From the NCBI RefSeq assembly GCF_004104075.1, contig NZ_QOVK01000018.1:1-64000 (forward strand): a stretch of 64,000 nucleotides of DNA, written 5' to 3'. Made by a program: the position numbers and the translations under genes. The DNA is from Leeuwenhoekiella polynyae. Lineage in GTDB: Bacteria; Bacteroidota; Bacteroidia; Flavobacteriales; Flavobacteriaceae. Under the pieces are notes generated by a model. That model did not search any database, was not told the origin of the DNA, and worked only from the letters and a program-made list of their open reading frames with translations. Positions 18,701 to 58,687 of this stretch are shown here, one piece after another (position 1 is the stretch's first letter; each line of letters opens with the position of its first letter).

Positions 18701-21040
18701 CTACGCACTCTTCATCGCTTCCAGCTCTCTAAAATCCTTTTTCAGCAAATCTTTTAAAATAGATGCTGTTTGTTGTGCTGCTATTTTAGGATCAAGTGCT
18801 GTATCAGAAATACCAGATACCACACGGGTAATATCGTGATCTACCCAACGCTTTTGTGACCAACTTTTTGGAGGTGCCCCTGTGAGATAGGCTGAGAAAT
18901 TATGATGTCCACTGCCAGGACGCTCACCTATGATGTGTACAATGGCTTTATTCTGTTGGCCTCTAGTAGTTCCAAACAAATGCTCTCCACAGGCATAACC
19001 GGCACGTACGCGTCCATGGGTTACGACTAGATTTTTAGAACTGATGCTTAGACCAGCATTTTTTAATTCTTCTTTTAGTGCAATCAAAAAAGGGGCTAAA
19101 TGACCATCGTCCATTAAGGCGCGAGCATTTAAGCCATCAGAAATGATGATTTGTACATCTGGGACTGCAGCCCAACTTTGGCGTAATTTTTTAAGCTTGC
19201 TTGTGGCATTAAAGGATAGTTCTTCACCACTCTCAGGATGATATACATAGTCTTTGCGATCTTCAGAGCGTGTGTTTATCAATAATGCATTTTCAATACT
19301 AGTTGCAAATTGTTCAGCCATTGGCGTCCATAAGCTTTCTTTAGCATCCTCATAAAGCTTTTTAACCTCAGCTTCGAGTTGTGGATCTAAATCCCAAATT
19401 TGGTCCCCATATCCTTCTGCAATTGCTACACCACGATTTCGTATTTTCTGGAGTTGCAGTGACGCTTCCTGATCAATTTCAGCTTTGCTTCTGGAATCAC
19501 CTTTTGCTTGTCTAAACTTATAATACACCCACTTTGGGTCTCCAAAATGTTCAGTGGGCTTTCCTTCAGCATTTATAATTTCGAGATCTTTAAAGAATTC
19601 CCACATCGCATCATTTACTTTATAACCAAATTTTTCGCGGATGCGCACGTGGTCTGCAAAGGAGGTCGTCAAATAACTCAACATAGGGTCATTCTTTGTA
19701 GGCAATGCCATCAGATATGCAGGGTTAGCGGGCATTACCTGCTCAATACACCAACTCAAATCATCTAGCGAAACATCCATATGCAAGGTTGAGCAAATAT
19801 CAAGACCTATAGTGAGGCCGTGCAGTTTGCCCATTACCGTATCTTCAAGACAGCAACGTACTAATTGTTCTTTAGTCTTAAAAACTTCAGGACCTATAAA
19901 GCCTGCAACATCATTTACGTGAACCCAGGGCTGTGGTCCTTGTGGGTTTTGTTGCTTGAGTTGTTCTTGTAAAGCCCGAACAAAGCCATATTTTCTGGAC
20001 TCGTGTAAAACCATATCAAAACCGGCTCCATGCCCGTTTGTAAAATCAGCTCCCTGTCCGGTTTCTGCATACAAGCCATATTGCGCGTTACGCAGCTTCG
20101 TATACTCCTGCATCTTTTTTATAGTCACATCAAAAGTTTTATTGGCTGCTACTGTACCGGCAAGACTTTGAAACCAAATACCTGTGGTCCCGGGTTGACT
20201 TTGTTCTACTTTGGCCTGCACATCTATATGAGAAAGTACGCAGTTAGAAAGCGTTTCTTCTAAACGGAACGTTTGCAAAATATCATAAAGAGTAGCTTGA
20301 ATTTTTGCTACGGAAACCGGATCACTTGATACCGGATTAGTACCCAGAACCAAATCACCCACCGCATAAGACCAGGCATCAAAAACCTGCCACGCAATGT
20401 CATCCGGGTGATCTGTTGGTGAATTAGGTTGTACACGCGCGCTCATATAACCTTTACTACCAATCTTACTCCCGGCCAGAGGATTGAACACTTTTTGACC
20501 AACCAGAATCAATTCTTCATTAGACATCAATTTAACCACACAACCTATTACGTCGCTAGAAAGTGCCGGCATAATACGTTTGATCTCAGCTTCCGGTTGT
20601 TCTAAAATAAAAGTTTTTAATTCTCCTAAAGTGAACTCTTGAAGTGCTGAAGAAGGAATCTGTGTAGTTTGTTGCACTAGGTTATACAAGTCATCCTCGT
20701 AGATTAAGTGTGCATCTATGGCCTTAACTTTAGTATTACCCAAAAGTCCACGAGCCGTTTTTCTGGATGCCTCATCCGCCGCTGCAAGACCTAAAGTGAG
20801 ATCGCCTTCTTTAAATTCGTTTGCTGCACCAATTATTTTTCGATACCAATCAAAATCTAATTTACCTTGATTTCGCTGAATGTAACTGAAAATATCTTCA
20901 CCCTTTTTTGCTGTATCAAGCCTTACAGAATTTAAAGACTCACCTTGTTCTCCTGCAAAATTACATCCATTAAAAAGTAGTGTTGCCGTGCTCATAAGTC
21001 CCATTTGAATTAAAAAATTCTTTCTAGAAATTGCTTCCAT
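18701..21040 (-). CDS. Fused ethanolamine ammonia-lyase EutB-EutC with export/lipoprotein signal
   Basis: The 779-residue protein joins both subunits of adenosylcobalamin-dependent ethanolamine ammonia-lyase. EutB occupies about residues 50-490, with the substrate-binding R202-V-Q204 in SARVQPNSPTD, then SYAVGDLVLGTNPVSS, GFDMVLHESRKYGF and VNDVAGFIGPEVF. EutC occupies about 500-779, with IIISDGLNARA, GRVRAGYACGEHLFG and GERPGSGHHNFSAYLTG. The enzyme converts ethanolamine to acetaldehyde and ammonia, normally in the cytosol or a microcompartment as two proteins. Here residues 1-26 read as a Tat-like leader (SRKNFL) with hydrophobic stretch and lipobox LFNGC (Cys26). No eutA reactivase, other eut gene or cobalamin riboswitch is visible nearby. 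Fusion and leader are both directly visible; export is inferred. Confidence 0.9.
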   Translation of the reverse strand: MEAISRKNFLIQMGLMSTATLLFNGCNFAGEQGESLNSVRLDTAKKGEDIFSYIQRNQGKLDFDWYRKIIGAANEFKEGDLTLGLAAADEASRKTARGLLGNTKVKAIDAHLIYEDDLYNLVQQTTQIPSSALQEFTLGELKTFILEQPEAEIKRIMPALSSDVIGCVVKLMSNEELILVGQKVFNPLAGSKIGSKGYMSARVQPNSPTDHPDDIAWQVFDAWSYAVGDLVLGTNPVSSDPVSVAKIQATLYDILQTFRLEETLSNCVLSHIDVQAKVEQSQPGTTGIWFQSLAGTVAANKTFDVTIKKMQEYTKLRNAQYGLYAETGQGADFTNGHGAGFDMVLHESRKYGFVRALQEQLKQQNPQGPQPWVHVNDVAGFIGPEVFKTKEQLVRCCLEDTVMGKLHGLTIGLDICSTLHMDVSLDDLSWCIEQVMPANPAYLMALPTKNDPMLSYLTTSFADHVRIREKFGYKVNDAMWEFFKDLEIINAEGKPTEHFGDPKWVYYKFRQAKGDSRSKAEIDQEASLQLQKIRNRGVAIAEGYGDQIWDLDPQLEAEVKKLYEDAKESLWTPMAEQFATSIENALLINTRSEDRKDYVYHPESGEELSFNATSKLKKLRQSWAAVPDVQIIISDGLNARALMDDGHLAPFLIALKEELKNAGLSISSKNLVVTHGRVRAGYACGEHLFGTTRGQQNKAIVHIIGERPGSGHHNFSAYLTGAPPKSWSQKRWVDHDITRVVSGISDTALDPKIAAQQTASILKDLLKKDFRELEAMKSA

Positions 21041-21177: not shown

Positions 21178-21222
21178 AACAAAAAAAGCCCTAAACCTAT
21201 TACAGTTTTAGGACTCTTTAAA
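21178..21222 (-). terminator. Terminator after the GH51-DUF5695-M1 operon
   Basis: On the minus strand AAAGAGTCCTAAAAC pairs imperfectly with GGTTTAGGGCTTTT and is followed by a T tract. It lies about 35 bp after the M1 peptidase stop codon. Confidence 0.75.
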
Positions 21223-22933: not shown

Positions 22934-25633
22934 TTAGGGTTTTAGAGTAATACTGATCGTTTTGTTTTTTAATGGAATTTTAAAAGCTCCTCTTACTTTT
23001 TTGTATTTGAGCTCATAGCCTTCCGGAAGGTTTAAATACGCATCTGAAGTATAAGCATCTTTTGCAGCTAGCTTCAGTTTAACCTCTTTTGTTTTGGTGT
23101 TATAAATCACCGTTTCAACCTTTCCGGCATCAAGGGTTATCCATAATTTTAAAGGCTGAATGAATACTGCGTTTTTAGCAGCCGTTGTTAAGTGCATGCT
23201 CACTTCATTTTTAGATTCAGAAAGATTTCCGCCGAAGGGTAAATAACCTAAATCTTCATCCTTAACCAAATAGGCAGAAGAATTAACGGCATACCCATAA
23301 AAATTAGAACCGTAATCCCCTGAAAGGTAATCAATATCTAACGTAGATGGCCAACTGTGGAAAGCTGCCGCTCCAAAACCATCTTTAGTAATATTAGCAA
23401 CCGAACCCAGTAAACCACCATAACCTACTTTTAATAAATGTAGATCTTCTGGATTCTCGCGATAAGCATCTAAAACAGGAATTGCATTCAAGCCAGAACC
23501 GTAATGATGTATTTGTCGCTCTACGCGAGAAAGTTTACCTCCATACAAGAAATCCCAGTAACGACGGGCGTTACCGTTATATGCCCAGTGCGGCATTGTT
23601 GGCATATAGGCTAAAATGGCATTTAAAGTCACTGCTGCTTTTGCATCATAACCAAAATAATCTGACCACATATAAACCTCTTCCTGACCGGTAGAATCCC
23701 ATGGCATTTCACTACCAAAAGGATACGCCAAACTCTCCCAGTGATCAGTACGCTTTTTCATTTCAGCTTCTAGAACTGTCGCTTCCTCTTCAAGATTTTC
23801 TCGTTTTAGATCTTCTAAAACATATAAAAAAACGGAGCCTTCCATCTGCCCAAACTGCGCATAATACGGCGCATGATTAACCATTGCTAAAGTCGTTTCA
23901 TAAGCTTGCTCCAGATACCACTTCCAGTCTTTTTGCGTTACCAGATTTTGATGATATCGTGATAAGCGATACAGCGTCCAGTAAGCAGCTACAACGTGTG
24001 GATAGTTATAAGATCTACCAGGGTCTGCTGCACCTTCTTTATTCCAGGCAGCCCAAGTTTTCCAGTTAATTGTATCATTATACGTACCTGCCGGCATCTC
24101 TTCTGGCTCGTAATAGAAAACACTTTTACGCACACCGTACTTATGCTCGCCCTCATTATTTTGCAAAACTCCCCAAACGGTTTGATTTACAAAATCTTCT
24201 AATTTTGCTACTTGTTCCTGATCAGGTTGAATGAGTTCTTTCATTGCTCCTCCTAACCAACTTCCGGCTCCACCTTCGTCACTCAAACCAGCAATCCAGG
24301 CACGAGAATCCTGAGTTACTTGTCTCTTGTTTTCATAATCATAAGAGATTATTGATGGTGCCCTGTTAAACACATCGGTATCGTCATCAAACCATTGCTT
24401 TTCATATAAGAACTCACCAAAATCAGCAACGAGTTCTTCTTCTGCTTTGATTACTTTATAATTAATGGTTTGCGTTTTTCCATCTGTATATGTTAGCCTT
24501 AAACGGGCTCTCCCCCATTGGTTTCCGGTAACTTCGTAAACTGTATAACCTGTTTTGGTATCCTCTAATTGTTCTACCGAAAGTGATCCTGTAGGTTCAA
24601 TTGATACCGAAGCGACAGCTGCGTTGTATTTTAAAAACAGCTTTGCTTTTACATCCTGCGGAAGTACATAACCAGGAGCACTAACAGCAACCGGAATCTC
24701 TTGCTCTGTCAAGGTCTCAGACACCTCCTGAATAGCTGGAGATAAGGTTAATCGTATGGAGGACGTACGGGTCTCTCCAGGTTTTAAAACTATACTTGTA
24801 GGAATGTTCCACTGGTTTACGCCTTCCCATTCGTTAGTAGCATAAGCTTTACTCAAAGACATCCACTCGTGGTAACCTTCAAAAACAATACTACGTGGTG
24901 TAGGATCATCTAACAACGGGCGGTAGGCTTCAAATGGCATATTCTCTTCAGGAAGTACTAAAAGCACTTTACCCTTTCCGTCTAACTTTTTAACTTCAAG
25001 ATAACCTGCATCCTCTCCGATATACGGATCGAAAAATACATTTTTAGCGTGAGCTTGCTCCAGAGAATTTCCTTCTAAAATGTTATTAAAAATCATTGGG
25101 ATTCCCAGCGCTCCCAACTCAATTTTGTGGTCCGTTGTATTTTTAAAATCAAAAGCTAAGATCAGATCTCCATCTTCTACTTTATAATATCTAATAATTT
25201 CTAACGGAAGATCTTCTGGCAAAGTTGCCGCTAAGTCTGCAGCTGCAAGTGTTCCTGCCTTTGTTATAGCTTTAACCGGCTTGCGCTGGTATGCGGTAGA
25301 ATAAGAACTCCACGCTTCTGAATCTGAATTACGAATTCTAAAATTCACATCTCCTAACTGATATAAGCTATCTCGTGATCTGATAGCCAGGCGATCTCCC
25401 GGTGTAAAATCAAAATCCGGATTTCCTTTTGGGGATAAAGCTGCGACTGTTTGAGACGCTCTAACTAATTTTAAAATAAACTGACTGGTCTCATAGGTGT
25501 TAAAGCCCTGCTCCAGACCTAGAGTAGAATCTTTAGCCGTAATTTTATCCCAATATCCCTGAGCATTGACTGTGCTTGCAGCACATAAAAATACAAAGAG
25601 AAACCCCTTTATAGTGTTCTTATAATTATTCAT
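22934..25633 (-). CDS. Exported DUF5695-like glycoside-hydrolase-type protein
   Basis: The 899-residue protein has a signal peptide (about 1-24, ending VNAQ). It has an N-terminal beta-rich half (about 25-400) and a C-terminal half with repeated helical segments rich in Trp and Tyr, such as YNYPHVVAAYWTLYRLSRYH and QFGQMEGSVFLYVLEDLKRE, typical of (alpha/alpha)6 glycosidases and lyases. The overall form matches what is annotated as DUF5695 in Bacteroidetes; this name is from recall and not confirmed. It lies 14 bp after the GH51 gene and 3 bp before the M1 peptidase, so it probably acts on the same arabinose-containing glycan in the periplasm. Confidence 0.72.
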   Translation of the reverse strand: MNNYKNTIKGFLFVFLCAASTVNAQGYWDKITAKDSTLGLEQGFNTYETSQFILKLVRASQTVAALSPKGNPDFDFTPGDRLAIRSRDSLYQLGDVNFRIRNSDSEAWSSYSTAYQRKPVKAITKAGTLAAADLAATLPEDLPLEIIRYYKVEDGDLILAFDFKNTTDHKIELGALGIPMIFNNILEGNSLEQAHAKNVFFDPYIGEDAGYLEVKKLDGKGKVLLVLPEENMPFEAYRPLLDDPTPRSIVFEGYHEWMSLSKAYATNEWEGVNQWNIPTSIVLKPGETRTSSIRLTLSPAIQEVSETLTEQEIPVAVSAPGYVLPQDVKAKLFLKYNAAVASVSIEPTGSLSVEQLEDTKTGYTVYEVTGNQWGRARLRLTYTDGKTQTINYKVIKAEEELVADFGEFLYEKQWFDDDTDVFNRAPSIISYDYENKRQVTQDSRAWIAGLSDEGGAGSWLGGAMKELIQPDQEQVAKLEDFVNQTVWGVLQNNEGEHKYGVRKSVFYYEPEEMPAGTYNDTINWKTWAAWNKEGAADPGRSYNYPHVVAAYWTLYRLSRYHQNLVTQKDWKWYLEQAYETTLAMVNHAPYYAQFGQMEGSVFLYVLEDLKRENLEEEATVLEAEMKKRTDHWESLAYPFGSEMPWDSTGQEEVYMWSDYFGYDAKAAVTLNAILAYMPTMPHWAYNGNARRYWDFLYGGKLSRVERQIHHYGSGLNAIPVLDAYRENPEDLHLLKVGYGGLLGSVANITKDGFGAAAFHSWPSTLDIDYLSGDYGSNFYGYAVNSSAYLVKDEDLGYLPFGGNLSESKNEVSMHLTTAAKNAVFIQPLKLWITLDAGKVETVIYNTKTKEVKLKLAAKDAYTSDAYLNLPEGYELKYKKVRGAFKIPLKNKTISITLKP

Positions 25634-25647
25634 GCGTATGTTGATTT

Positions 25648-27987
25648 CTAATTTAATTTGAACTTATAAATCCCTGCTGATTCCTTTCTGATTAAAATAC
25701 TGTTATTGTTGACTTTAAATGCTTCTTCTAAAAGATAAATACGCTCCTTACCATCCACATCATTATACACCATATCATTTTCTCCGGTAATGATAAATGC
25801 GTGTCCTTCATCATCAATCTGTTGTTCTAAAAAGTCCAGTTTCAATCTATATTCCTGATGTGTTGCGTTAACTACCGAAAGTGTCAAATAATTTCCATCT
25901 TCCGTTAGGGTTGCGGCAATTTCTAAAGGTTGCGGAGCTCCACTAATAGCTAACGGTCTTGTACCGAATTCCTTTCGATACGTTTTTAAAACCAACCCGG
26001 TTCCTTCTAACCAGCTATCTGTATCTGTAGTTTTTATCGCTCCGATCACATTTACGGTCTGCGCATAATTTGCCATATAGTACATATCTGACTGGCGTGA
26101 AAATTCATTAAATCCTGCGGCGATACCCAGAGCATCTTTTAGAAAATATCTAGTTCCCAGCAAACCAAACTCATGAGGACCGTACCAATAATTCCATTCG
26201 TCTAATGCTATTTTAATATCACGATCTGCTATCTCTGAGATTTCCCTTCTGGCACGTTTGTGCTCTTCTGCAATTTCTCGAATCGCATCAGGTATTTGTT
26301 TTACGTGCGTCAATAGACCACCGGCGTGCCAATCCTGACGATAAAAATGCTCACTGATATAGGTCATATTTTCTGAAGTATTGGAGTACATCATATCATT
26401 CCATTCCCCCGGAAAACCTACAGCGATCAAGTCTATATGGGGATCTACAGCCCACATTGCTTCGGCAACCTTATTATGCTTTTTTACATAGTCTTCAACA
26501 GGCATATGCCCCAGTTGCCAATCGCCAAACATCTCATTTCCTACTGCCCAAAGCTTTACATCGTAAGGTTCTGCATGACCATTTTCTGCACGCCAGTTCC
26601 CCATTTTTGTCGAGGCATCGCCATTAAAATAAGCGACTTCATTAGCGGCCAATTCTGCATCTCCCAGACCGGTATTTACCGCTATATTAGCTTCTGCATT
26701 CAGAATTTCACAAAGCTTCATAAACTCGTGAATCCCAACATCGTTATATTCTAAACCATCCCAGGCACGTTCATAACGTGTGGGTCTTGCATCAGGATTA
26801 CCTAAACCGTCTTTCCAATCATACCCGGAAACAAAATTCCCACCCGGCCAGCGATAAATAGGCGCATCCAGTTCTTTTAATAAAGCGATCACATCAGAGC
26901 GGAAGCCGTCTATATTATCATTAGGCATTAATGAAACTGCAGCAATCGTGACTTTACCAACACCTTGAAAAGAAATATTCAGCTTTGCAAGATCCCCAAA
27001 ATTTGTAGTCGGTTTCAGTTCAAATTCTTTAGTTATAAAATTTTTACTTTCTGAGTTAATCAAGTCTAATGAGGTTGATGAATTAGAAGCTTCTAAATCA
27101 ATAGAGACACCTGTAATGGCGCCTTCAGCTTTATAAACAATGCGACCAGTATAAGATTTATCAGCGTATAAGGAAATGGAGTCCTGATAAATAAGAACTG
27201 AATCATCTCTGATATCAAAAACCGGTAATGCCATTTCTGAAAACCCGTTTTTAGCATCTAAAGCAATCTTGGTTGTATCTACTGTTGTTTCCCATGGAGA
27301 ATCGCTGGTTCCGGGCTTATGATAAAATTTTCGATCAGATAGCATTTCAGCCCATAAACCACCATAGATAGATTTACCCATATGCTCTATAAACTGTCCG
27401 TAGATATAGGGAGACATGGGCTCTTTTTCTTTTGATAAATCTATCAAAATTGCCGGTTGCAAAACTTGAGCAGAGATTTCTTCAACCTGAATTTCCTTAA
27501 AATAGGCTTTACCTTTTGCCGGGCCATTCTTACCCAATATACAGGCAATAATAAAACTATCATCACCTTCAGAATCAAATTCTATTGTTACAGGTGTCCA
27601 ATCTGTTGTACCCGTAAAAACCGTATCGTTCTCAATTTCAAAATTCCCCAAATCAAAACCTGCTCCTGCATCCGTTTTTTCTGCGAATACATTTTCGGTT
27701 TTTATAAATCCAGTAACCTTATAATGTGCATACGGTTTAATGTTAATCTTCTTAAATACACGTCCTGCCTGAAGCGTATCCTGTGTAATTATCAAAACAC
27801 GGGTCTCTGAATCGGCTAAACTCGTATCACTGTAATTCTCCTGATTACTCCAGTATTCGGTTTCCCAATTGGCTTCCTTAAAGTTTTGAGTAGTGGCTGG
27901 GGAGAGAATTTGTACAGTATCTGTTACAACTGTCTTAGAACAACTCAATGTTAAACAGAATAGCAAAAAAAATAAAGCCTTACGCAT
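25648..27987 (-). CDS. GH51 alpha-L-arabinofuranosidase lipoprotein
   Basis: The 779-residue protein is a lipoprotein (lipobox TLSC, Cys16) with an N-terminal carbohydrate-binding-like beta domain (about 35-170). The GH51 region follows: SPYIYGQFIEHMGKSIYGGLW, PIYRWPGGNFVSGYDWKDG, the acid/base Glu485 in AVGNEMFGDWQ and the nucleophile Glu597 in IALDEWNYWYG, then a C-terminal beta domain. GH51 enzymes remove terminal arabinofuranose from arabinan, arabinoxylan or arabinogalactan. It is the first gene of a three-gene operon and is divergent from an AraC-type regulator 440 bp away. The lipid anchor suggests action in the periplasm or at the surface. Confidence 0.94.
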   Translation of the reverse strand: MRKALFFLLFCLTLSCSKTVVTDTVQILSPATTQNFKEANWETEYWSNQENYSDTSLADSETRVLIITQDTLQAGRVFKKINIKPYAHYKVTGFIKTENVFAEKTDAGAGFDLGNFEIENDTVFTGTTDWTPVTIEFDSEGDDSFIIACILGKNGPAKGKAYFKEIQVEEISAQVLQPAILIDLSKEKEPMSPYIYGQFIEHMGKSIYGGLWAEMLSDRKFYHKPGTSDSPWETTVDTTKIALDAKNGFSEMALPVFDIRDDSVLIYQDSISLYADKSYTGRIVYKAEGAITGVSIDLEASNSSTSLDLINSESKNFITKEFELKPTTNFGDLAKLNISFQGVGKVTIAAVSLMPNDNIDGFRSDVIALLKELDAPIYRWPGGNFVSGYDWKDGLGNPDARPTRYERAWDGLEYNDVGIHEFMKLCEILNAEANIAVNTGLGDAELAANEVAYFNGDASTKMGNWRAENGHAEPYDVKLWAVGNEMFGDWQLGHMPVEDYVKKHNKVAEAMWAVDPHIDLIAVGFPGEWNDMMYSNTSENMTYISEHFYRQDWHAGGLLTHVKQIPDAIREIAEEHKRARREISEIADRDIKIALDEWNYWYGPHEFGLLGTRYFLKDALGIAAGFNEFSRQSDMYYMANYAQTVNVIGAIKTTDTDSWLEGTGLVLKTYRKEFGTRPLAISGAPQPLEIAATLTEDGNYLTLSVVNATHQEYRLKLDFLEQQIDDEGHAFIITGENDMVYNDVDGKERIYLLEEAFKVNNNSILIRKESAGIYKFKLN

Positions 27988-34369: not shown

Positions 34370-35410
34370 TTGAAACCTAAAAAAACTAAACATATCCATT
34401 CCGCGTCTGCAGAAAAGATAATAGCGAAACGTAAAAAAATACTACAGGCTGAAGATCTTATTTCAAAAATAAGCAACGGAAACACCACAGCTTTGAGCCA
34501 GGCAATCACCCTTATTGAAAGTACTGCTGTTAAGCATCAGCAAGTAGGACAAGTCATTTTAAAAGGGTGTCTTCCTTATTCCGGTAATTCAGTACGCATA
34601 GGAATTACAGGTGTTCCCGGCGTGGGTAAAAGCACCTTTATTGAAGCGCTCGGCACACATTGTATTAATAAAGGAAAAAAACTAGCAGTCTTAGCTATAG
34701 ACCCCAGCAGCTCAATCTCGCACGGAAGTATCCTTGGCGATAAAACCCGTATGGAACAACTCGCTACTAACCCCAAAGCTTTTATCAGACCTTCTGCTGC
34801 GGGAGACTCTCTGGGCGGTGTAGCCCGCAAAACCCGGGAAGCAATCATACTTTGTGAAGCGGCCGGTTATGAGGTGATTTTTATAGAAACCGTAGGTGTA
34901 GGTCAGAGTGAAACAGCGGTGCATAATATGACCGATTTCTTTTTACTGCTGAAATTAGCCGGAGCGGGTGATGAATTGCAAGGCATCAAACGAGGTATTA
35001 TAGAAATGGCAGATGCGCTTATCATTAACAAAGCAGATGGAGAAAACCTAGCTGCAGCTAAAAAGGCTAAAACGGCATTTGCAAAAGCTTTGCATTTATT
35101 TCCGGCAAAAGCTAGCAAATGGCAACCCCGCGTTGCGTTGTGCAGCGCTCTCGAAAATCAAGGCATAACAAGCATCTGGGAACTTATTGAAGAATACCTC
35201 AACCTGGTAAAAAGCAATGAGTTCTTTGCTGAAAATCGAAAAAACCAAAATAAATACTGGTTGCAAACCAGTATTGAGAATGCGTTGAAAGATGATTTTT
35301 ATGGAAACGCTGAAGTTCAAAATCAATTACCAAAACTTCTAGGTGATTTGAATTCAGGTAAAATTACCGCTTTTCAGGCTGCGCAGGAATTGTTGAAAAA
35401 AGCTAAATGA
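34370..35410 (+). CDS. meaB: Methylmalonyl-CoA mutase-associated GTPase MeaB, TTG start
   Basis: The 346-residue protein shows the MeaB/ArgK G3E GTPase features: Walker A GVPGVGKST at 81-89, LAIDPSSSISHGSILGDKTRM, FIRPSAAGDSLGGVARKTREA, FIETVGVGQSE (base-II-type region), DELQGIKRGIIEMAD and the guanine-specificity NKADG. MeaB loads and protects adenosylcobalamin on methylmalonyl-CoA mutase. The mutase genes are not in the window. The TTG start at 34370 is placed by the promoter and the full-length N-terminus; the nearest ATG would be well inside the conserved region. Confidence 0.95.
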   Translation: MKPKKTKHIHSASAEKIIAKRKKILQAEDLISKISNGNTTALSQAITLIESTAVKHQQVGQVILKGCLPYSGNSVRIGITGVPGVGKSTFIEALGTHCINKGKKLAVLAIDPSSSISHGSILGDKTRMEQLATNPKAFIRPSAAGDSLGGVARKTREAIILCEAAGYEVIFIETVGVGQSETAVHNMTDFFLLLKLAGAGDELQGIKRGIIEMADALIINKADGENLAAAKKAKTAFAKALHLFPAKASKWQPRVALCSALENQGITSIWELIEEYLNLVKSNEFFAENRKNQNKYWLQTSIENALKDDFYGNAEVQNQLPKLLGDLNSGKITAFQAAQELLKKAK

Positions 35411-57034: not shown

Positions 57035-58687
57035 TTAGTCTGAAATATTCTTAAAATCATCAAAGTCAGCAGCTAGCTTTTTAGCTTCTTCAATAAGTGT
57101 AACAGGATATTTATTCAACTCTAATATGCGAATTGCATTCCGGTTCTTAAGTTTTCCGGCTTTGAGTTTGTAATCAAAAATAATACGCTCCTCCGCTACA
57201 AATTCACTAAAATGATACAATTCATATGTTTCAGTAAGTAAGTCTGTTAATTCTATATCGTGTGTAGACACCAATACCGTATTTCCATGCTGAGCCAGAT
57301 TAGAAAGTACCGCTTTTCCTGCCGCAATTCGCTCCGCTGTATTGGTTCCTTTAAAAAGTTCATCAAGTAAAAAAAGATTAGGTACAGTTTCCTCTCCTGC
57401 CACTACAAGGGCTTTAATCCTAAGTACTTCTTCAAAATAATAACTCTTATCATTCATCAAATCATCGCTAATACGGATGGCTGAAAGAATACGCATGGGT
57501 CTAAACTGCATCTGTTTTGCAAAGCAAGTATTAAGCGTTAATCCAGAAAGAATATTGATGCCTATCGTGCGAATAAAAGTAGTTTTACCAGACATATTAG
57601 ACCCGGTCAACAAGACTGATCGCTCACGGGTTTCAATTGAATTTACCTGACAATCTGAAATAAGCGGATGATAAATTTCTTTTGCAACAACTCCTGTATT
57701 TACGTCTGATAGATGAGGGGTGCACCAACTATTGAGTCCGTTGCGCAGTAAGGCTACAGACAATAAAGAATCTATACGACCTACATACTTAAAAACAGTT
57801 TCTACTTCTACGCGTTCTCTATCTAAACGTTTTAAAGCACCAAATAGAAAAAGAGGTTCGAGTAGAAAAAGGGTTTTTATAATATCTAAAAGAAACCATA
57901 GTACAATTTCAAAATCTCCTTGTATTCCCGCTTCTATCTGAAAAAAAAGCGTACGGTTTTTAAGTTGGTTTATACGGGATACAGCTTTTAAAATCTTTGA
58001 ATCATCTGGCTTTGTGTATTCGATTTTAAGTAATTGATTGGCTACTTTATTGAGTTTTAATAACTGTGGAATAGAGCTTACATACTTAACTAAGTTACGT
58101 TTATTCCAATAATGGATTACAAAATTTACGCAAAAAACACCTAAAAGAACAGCGAAGAATACCGGATTAAAAAAGGTTAATATCAAAGTGCAGAAACTTG
58201 TAAAGGAAAGCAGTTTAATCGCTAAAAACCACGAGGGTACTTGTATATGTTCTTCTTGAAATAAGCTCGAAATATAGTAGGCTTCTTTATGCTTTAAACG
58301 GTCTAATTCTTTTTGGATTTGACTTCTCAATACAGCATCTTTACTCAGTCGCTCTATAAGCACCTCATCTTCTTGAGTCTGTGCTTCGTCAAGTTTAATG
58401 CATCTTAATTTGTCATATAAGTATTGCTGCCCCACTCTGGATTGGGTACGGTCTAAAAACTGAAACACTTCATCAAAATCAAGATCATTACACGTATGAT
58501 CTGATAAAACCTGAAAAGCATTATGTGTTTTTTTATTGCTGAAATATAGTGCTATGTGTTCAAAATTAAAGAGCTCTTTTTTAATCGTGTTTTTAGTTTT
58601 TTCAGGTTTAGTTTGACTGCGGCTCTTTACACCTAAACCTATTTTAGAGAGACCTTCTTTAAATCTAAAAGCATAATAATTCAGCAT
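57035..58687 (-). CDS. Membrane-anchored MutS-family ATPase
   Basis: The 550-residue protein has a helical N-terminus resembling the MutS clamp and lever region (FDEVFQFLDRTQSRVGQQYLYDKLRCI), two membrane segments (about residues 165-210) and a C-terminal MutS ATPase domain with Walker A TGSNMSGKTTFIRTIG, FRPMRILSAIRISDDL, YYFEEVLRIKALV, Walker B LFLLDELFKGTNT and the switch VSTHDIEL. It lacks the mismatch-recognition domain of MutS1. Such membrane-bound MutS-like proteins are common in Bacteroidetes and uncharacterised; a mismatch repair role should not be assumed. Confidence 0.9.
   Translation of the reverse strand: MLNYYAFRFKEGLSKIGLGVKSRSQTKPEKTKNTIKKELFNFEHIALYFSNKKTHNAFQVLSDHTCNDLDFDEVFQFLDRTQSRVGQQYLYDKLRCIKLDEAQTQEDEVLIERLSKDAVLRSQIQKELDRLKHKEAYYISSLFQEEHIQVPSWFLAIKLLSFTSFCTLILTFFNPVFFAVLLGVFCVNFVIHYWNKRNLVKYVSSIPQLLKLNKVANQLLKIEYTKPDDSKILKAVSRINQLKNRTLFFQIEAGIQGDFEIVLWFLLDIIKTLFLLEPLFLFGALKRLDRERVEVETVFKYVGRIDSLLSVALLRNGLNSWCTPHLSDVNTGVVAKEIYHPLISDCQVNSIETRERSVLLTGSNMSGKTTFIRTIGINILSGLTLNTCFAKQMQFRPMRILSAIRISDDLMNDKSYYFEEVLRIKALVVAGEETVPNLFLLDELFKGTNTAERIAAGKAVLSNLAQHGNTVLVSTHDIELTDLLTETYELYHFSEFVAEERIIFDYKLKAGKLKNRNAIRILELNKYPVTLIEEAKKLAADFDDFKNISD

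Follow-up and report, generated by a model that had tools for sequence, protein, structure and literature searches.

Where in the cell would an ethanolamine ammonia-lyase work if both of its subunits were fused into one chain behind an export leader, and how would its cofactor be maintained there? The question is raised by a gene of Leeuwenhoekiella polynyae (contig NZ_QOVK01000018.1), found within the window, by which we mean the whole stretch of 64,000 nucleotides that was analysed. To our knowledge, adenosylcobalamin radical enzymes are treated as residents of the cytoplasm or of microcompartments, with the cofactor made and repaired using ATP, and an extracytoplasmic place is unexpected for a B12-dependent enzyme of the EutBC kind. 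The reading we favour, with a probability of roughly 60%, is that eutBC encodes an extracytoplasmic, adenosylcobalamin-dependent ethanolamine ammonia-lyase in a single polypeptide, which in the lineage of the window would be preloaded with cofactor, exported by Tat and anchored by lipid. A first-pass annotation, made from the sequence alone, had proposed a similar Tat-exported holo-enzyme; the fusion, the leader, the substrate-site residues and the lack of EutA stood up to closer analysis, while the Tat route and lipid anchoring as a general trait did not fare as well.

The gene (18701..21040, minus strand) is an open reading frame of 779 codons with an ATG start, in which leader, EutB and EutC follow one another, so the fusion of both subunits in one frame is borne out. 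Pfam places EutB at residues 63-497 (19550..20854, minus strand; E 5.2e-134) and EutC, with its SDGL and GERPG motifs, at residues 538-768 (18737..19429, minus strand; E 1.5e-33), and the gap separating both matches defines a linker of residues 498-537 (19430..19549, minus strand). The protein passes the EutB models of Pfam (447.8 bits, cut-off 25) and NCBIfam (NF011649; 583.7 bits, cut-off 554) and the EutC model of Pfam (116.5 bits, cut-off 25.8), and stays under the cut-off of the NCBIfam EutC equivalog (82 bits against 230). Foldseek agrees on both domains: an AlphaFold model built with 18 sequences (mean pLDDT 77.5, pTM 0.75, residues 1-35 below 50) matches E. coli EutB (3abo_A) with a TM-score of 0.84 and E. 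coli EutC chains (3abo_B/D, 5ysr_D, 7xrm_B) with 0.72-0.77, each by target length. Identity is 95% with the protein of L. aestuarii and 82% with that of L. blandensis, in keeping with a Leeuwenhoekiella genome. Between eutBC and the upstream M1 peptidase gene lies a terminator-like hairpin with a T run (21181..21215, minus strand), recognised by eye with 9 pairs, including one G-T, and a loop of 11; an automatic scan with a loop limit of 8 did not list it. The hairpin suggests that eutBC is transcribed separately from the peptidase gene.

The protein begins with MEAISRKNFLIQMGLMSTATLLFNGC. Its leader (residues 1-26; 20963..21040, minus strand) contains the SRKNFL motif, a hydrophobic stretch and a lipobox-like FNGC end, loose at -3, which closes with Cys26 (20963..20965, minus strand) as the candidate lipidated residue. 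All the elements named at first pass are present, but the motif is RK, and the leader lacks the twin arginine expected of Tat substrates. A wrongly chosen start codon is an unlikely source of the leader, since after possible starts at codons 1, 13 and 16 the next one is codon 100, within EutB, and since the leader is nearly unchanged in L. aestuarii: codons 1-26 differ by one synonymous and no non-synonymous change, compared to 55 synonymous and 17 non-synonymous changes in codons 48-500.

We sought relatives by a search of genome contigs (the best 80 of 192) and in samples of the class (EutB in 17 of 395 genomes), of the window's own phylum (13/395), of the phylum of a Pelobacter-like record, G452, here termed Desulfobacterota (36/395), and of the phylum of a Planctomycetaceae record, G457, here termed Planctomycetota (22/294), taking at most 30 loci from each of these four. 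After removal of duplicates the aligned set held 147 proteins, 113 of them at least 50% identical to the window protein. The single-chain EutBC clade that these 113 form spans Bacteroidota, Desulfobacterota and Planctomycetota; three members are truncated at the 5' end (L047, L128 and L059, the last from a MAG named Anaerolineales yet placed among Bacteroidota in the tree), which leaves 110 intact. An export-type leader, meaning a charged start and a hydrophobic stretch, is carried by 108 of the 110: 41 RR, 39 RK, 6 with a single Arg and 22 of Sec type, according to a simple hydrophobicity and motif rule with final labels assigned partly by eye. For instance, L065, L080, L083, L122 and L126 matched a loose RR/RK pattern and were relabelled Sec-type by eye (L126 has RR but, by eye, no Tat consensus), some others were relabelled by eye as well, and the leader of L041, missed by the automatic rule, was accepted by eye. 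The two leaderless members, L185 and L188, are deep-branching Planctomycetota, and about 450 bases upstream of their genes, read in all three frames of the same strand, show no hidden leader.

A leader is missing from all 34 other EutB proteins, whether split or fused in another way, and the three of them with some upstream sequence have hydrophobicity scores of zero or less. Among these 34 are split EutB proteins as well as three kinds of leaderless fusion; a leader thus does not come with fusion alone, and the contrast of 108/110 with 0/34 points to more than chance. The first-pass annotation had looked to homologues sharing both leader and fusion for support, and such homologues occur in three phyla; it had also counted homologues without a leader as evidence against its reading, and within the clade there are just the two deep-branching ones.

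Catalytic residues were likewise to be compared with E. coli EutBC, and here the eight EutB residues that we take, from E. coli structures, to form the substrate site are all kept in the window protein. By alignment, E. coli R160, Q162, N193, E287, F329, D362, M392 and L402 correspond to R202, Q204, N235, E326, F381, D414, M444 and L454. Equivalents of the first four are found in all 112 clade members read (L128 is truncated), those of F329, D362 and L402 in 113/113, and that of M392 in 111/113, with Ile in L039 and L119. In EutC, GERPG, R677 and Y718 are common to 109/109 clade members and to 30/30 other EutC proteins aligned. Identity to canonical EutB is only about 30% in the EutB part, where the window protein has GTVAA in place of GSEKG, and five EutC positions conserved in canonical EutC (606, 638, 682, 743 and 748) hold clade-specific residues. 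Together with the score under the EutC equivalog cut-off, these EutC residues suggest that cobamide binding may differ from the canonical mode. The idea that loss of E257 marks an inactive cofactor site was rejected, as this position varies in other EutB proteins as well.

The leader changes class, being Tat-like or Sec-type and with or without a lipobox Cys, yet stays an export signal. The Bacteroidota clade, which counts Balneolales and Melioribacteraceae records among its members, has 72 intact sequences. All 72 keep the first Arg and the F at +3; at the second motif position 27 have R and 39 have K, and the 6 with a single Arg have some other residue there. A lipobox-like Cys is present in 36/72, two of them doubtful (L063 and L071); thus the proposed lipid anchoring has its Cys26 in place in the window protein but is not general. 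Seven other Tat-like leaders in the same loci were judged credible and six of these are RR, so that RK is a peculiarity of the EutBC family in these loci. TatC is encoded in the window's own genome (G000:C3, E 2.7e-67) and in 20 of the 21 genomes tested. For the window protein, export by Tat and lipidation are plausible, though use of Tat is uncertain owing to the RK motif, the single-Arg leaders in 6/72 and the predominance of RR in the other credible leaders; with a sister clade of Sec type besides, the route proposed at first pass is no more than a candidate. All 22 Sec-type leaders belong to one Desulfobacterota clade, and 16 of them have an AxA-like site.

A quick tree (LG+G4 on EutB columns, excluding L128 as too short) places three leaderless proteins first, L159, L188 and L185, followed by RR members of Planctomycetota with three from the Desulfobacterota sample, and then by a clade of 22 Sec-type members that also holds one RR member (L119) and whose sister is the Bacteroidota clade. 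Most simply, fusion would have come first, a Tat-like leader would then have been gained, and one clade would have changed from Tat to Sec, as read from a quick tree with flags for long branches (L159 among others) and for odd letter make-up (L185 and L188 among others).

The enzyme, the damage to its cofactor and EutA have been reviewed (PMC5821096). Cofactor maintenance remains the puzzle that it was at first pass, for both loading and repair outside the cytoplasm. EutA was not found in the window's own genome, the sole partial match being FtsA, so the earlier remark that no eutA lies nearby holds genome-wide. Full-length matches occur in one of 36 genomes, with only partial ones in 29 (their identity established for the own genome's, FtsA) and none in 6. 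As a special mark of the exported enzyme this absence is weakened and is not diagnostic, because 11 Bacteroidota genomes with split EutB likewise have no full-length EutA. In G454, the one genome with a full-length match, that EutA adjoins EutH and a fused EutBC-like gene without leader, and the exported copy (L073) lies on another contig. An adenosyltransferase of the PF01923 type, which we take to be cytoplasmic, is found in the own genome and in 13 of 14 genomes tested, and a search of the own genome for CobA/BtuR gave no match. The window gave no match to any Rfam family, cobalamin riboswitches among them, and none of 36 further locus records (a set that excludes L175) has a cobalamin riboswitch at the gathering score; two such riboswitches occur in the own genome, on contigs other than that of the window, and one in G452, some 1.1 kb downstream of that genome's second copy of eutBC. 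As had been noted at first pass, no aldehyde dehydrogenase family was seen for 39 of the 42 window ORFs, scanned with Pfam, among the first 25 of 65 families listed, and no eut cluster family appears elsewhere in the window among the Pfam matches listed. The accompanying claim that no eut regulator is near agrees with the lack of an EutR match for one AraC-family protein in the window, the one scanned further, but the window contains a second.

Under the favoured reading, a PduO/EutT-type adenosyltransferase would make adenosylcobalamin in the cytoplasm, the fused enzyme would fold around it on that side of the membrane, and the Tat system would export the holo-enzyme; the window lineage fits this order because the adenosyltransferase found is of a type taken to be cytoplasmic. 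Lipidation of Cys26 would then tether the enzyme at the periplasmic side, where it could split phospholipid-derived ethanolamine into acetaldehyde and ammonia, products that would cross the membrane with no need of an ethanolamine permease. With no EutA, each enzyme molecule would presumably work until its cofactor is damaged. This suggests ethanolamine use in marine Bacteroidota without permease, reactivase or microcompartment, and a leader kept over three phyla through a change from Tat-like to Sec-type makes periplasmic adenosylcobalamin chemistry, with cofactor loading and replacement there, testable.

Neighbouring genes differ between the leader classes. Among 36 loci with eutBC located (20 Sec-type, 14 Tat-like, 2 leaderless), many of them shortened by contig ends, we compared neighbour clusters named by Pfam on one member each. 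The 20 Sec-type loci have a membrane protein without Pfam match in 14, an ABC ATPase in 11, a Gcw_chp-like protein (weak, under cut-off) in 11, SBP_bac_6, Peripla_BP_2 and FecCD proteins in 8 each, aldehyde:ferredoxin oxidoreductase in 7, MoxR in 7 and DUF58 in 5. Two of these clusters also occur at one Tat-type locus each, the ABC ATPase at L169 and the oxidoreductase at L168. In Desulfobacterota, the oxidoreductase cluster lies within about 6 kb of eutBC in 8/36 loci (7/20 Sec-type and one Tat-type) and 31-34 nt downstream in three. The membrane protein (e.g. L175:12235-13059; L066:12356-13174) directly follows many Sec-type eutBC genes on the 3' side and, by a hydrophobicity count, has 4-6 hydrophobic segments in 13 of 14 members, the other, L080, having 2 at a contig end. 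Across 37 genomes it occurs in 11/15 with Sec-type and 0/22 with Tat-like leaders, a difference for which shared ancestry is a confounder; the 22 include G743, a Tat-type genome nested in the Sec clade. For genomes with Tat-like leaders it was rejected as a general partner of EutBC.

A protein of the Sec clade, being unfolded at export, must meet its cobamide outside the cytoplasm, which leads to a more tentative and, in our view, somewhat unlikely extension: a periplasmic adenosylcobalamin radical enzyme whose cofactor is supplied and repaired by a dedicated system outside the cytoplasm. Sec-type enzymes would be loaded outside, served by the multi-helix membrane protein and the cobalamin-type ABC transporter, with MoxR/DUF58/vWA proteins encoded at their loci taking the place of EutA, while Tat-type enzymes would be preloaded and lack the membrane protein. 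In other enzymes, MoxR/vWA pairs drive the insertion of metal (PMC13036017, PMC9976466), which makes these neighbours candidate stand-ins for EutA.

Several alternatives have to be weighed against the favoured reading. The protein could be exported unfolded by Sec throughout, Bacteroidota included, and could fold in the periplasm around imported cobamide. The 22 Desulfobacterota members with Sec-type leaders fit this, as do the 6 single-Arg and 39 RK leaders in the Bacteroidota clade and the cobalamin/siderophore-type ABC transport genes and membrane protein adjoining many Sec-type genes; it is nevertheless unlikely given the invariant first Arg and F at +3 in 72/72 Bacteroidota leaders, the RR leaders in the next lineages to branch off behind the leaderless members, a presumably cytoplasmic PF01923 enzyme as the sole adenosyltransferase type found in the own genome, and the lack of the membrane protein in all 22 genomes with Tat-like leaders.

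Less probable still is a cytoplasmic enzyme whose leader serves as a membrane tether or has become an unused remnant. Cofactor repair would be easier in the cytoplasm and two members, L185 and L188, have no leader at all, but the leader has been retained over three phyla despite its change of class, has positive charges before the hydrophobic stretch, and has a lipobox-like Cys in half of the Bacteroidota clade and AxA-like sites in 16/22 Sec-type members, features that fit mainly processing outside. We consider it just as improbable that the exported protein has ceased to be an ethanolamine ammonia-lyase and instead binds cobamide or acts as a lyase on a different amino alcohol. The low identity of EutB, its GTVAA sequence and the clade-specific EutC residues would allow for such a change, but seven of the eight substrate-site positions are invariant in the members read and M392 alone varies, in two, whereas the leaderless L192/L197 kind, without D362, shows that the site can be lost in the superfamily. 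An acetaldehyde-type oxidoreductase also adjoins the gene in some Desulfobacterota, and Pelobacter carbinolicus strains grow on ethanolamine (PMC3543383).

Parts of the preferred picture, of an exported single-chain lyase, have precedents. With canonical EutB and EutC (E. coli 3abo; Listeria EutB 2qez) the window protein shares both domains, the fold and the substrate-site residues tabulated, and it differs in its single chain, its leader, an EutB identity of about 30% and remodelled EutC positions; compared to canonical eut systems, its genome has no EutA found and the window no eut cluster family among the Pfam matches listed. Reductive dehalogenases are Tat-exported corrinoid enzymes that are not known to use adenosylcobalamin radicals; they likewise combine a cobamide enzyme with a Tat leader and differ from EutBC in fold and chemistry. 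The fusion and the missing eutA are already known for P. carbinolicus, for which the sections of the account used here report fused eutBC1 and eutBC2, no eutA, growth on ethanolamine and a gene order of substrate-binding protein, multi-TM protein, corrinoid-type ABC transporter, VWFA proteins and ATPase that resembles our Sec-type loci; export is not mentioned in those sections (PMC3543383). Its relatives in our set (Pelobacter sp. records L066 and L088) have Sec-type leaders, unlike the window protein. Searches of the open-licence literature for ethanolamine ammonia-lyase with twin-arginine or with MoxR found no paper, though export may have been noticed earlier.

The leaderless fused EutBC-like proteins (L131/L132/L134; L192/L197 with the G454 gene; L159) share the fusion without the leader and fall in separate places in the EutB tree. 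In the kind formed by L192, L197 and L234:4273-6483, to which the gene beside EutH and EutA in G454 is similar, the D362 position is Ala, and the substrate may be different.

Within the genus the eutBC gene is accessory: of the 13 genomes searched, 3 have an intact copy, the own included, and in G006 (L006/L008) decayed EutC-end fragments with stops lie between the same neighbours, M1 peptidase and DUF6055. No conserved neighbourhood was seen in Bacteroidota, the largest neighbour cluster comprising 7 of 78 located loci from all phyla, many with short flanks. Planctomycete loci have DUF1501 and a cytochrome-like gene (the latter by eye) as neighbours, both common in planctomycetes. In the window, the upstream genes on the same strand (22934-27987) encode a DUF5695 protein and an arabinofuranosidase-like protein and resemble a small carbohydrate cluster. 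MeaB, the chaperone GTPase of methylmalonyl-CoA mutase, is encoded at 34370-35407, some 13 kb from eutBC, and is probably unrelated to it. Finally, a MutS-like ATPase encoded at 57038-58687 also matches KamC, the lysine 5,6-aminomutase reactivase, far under the cut-off (66 bits against 300).
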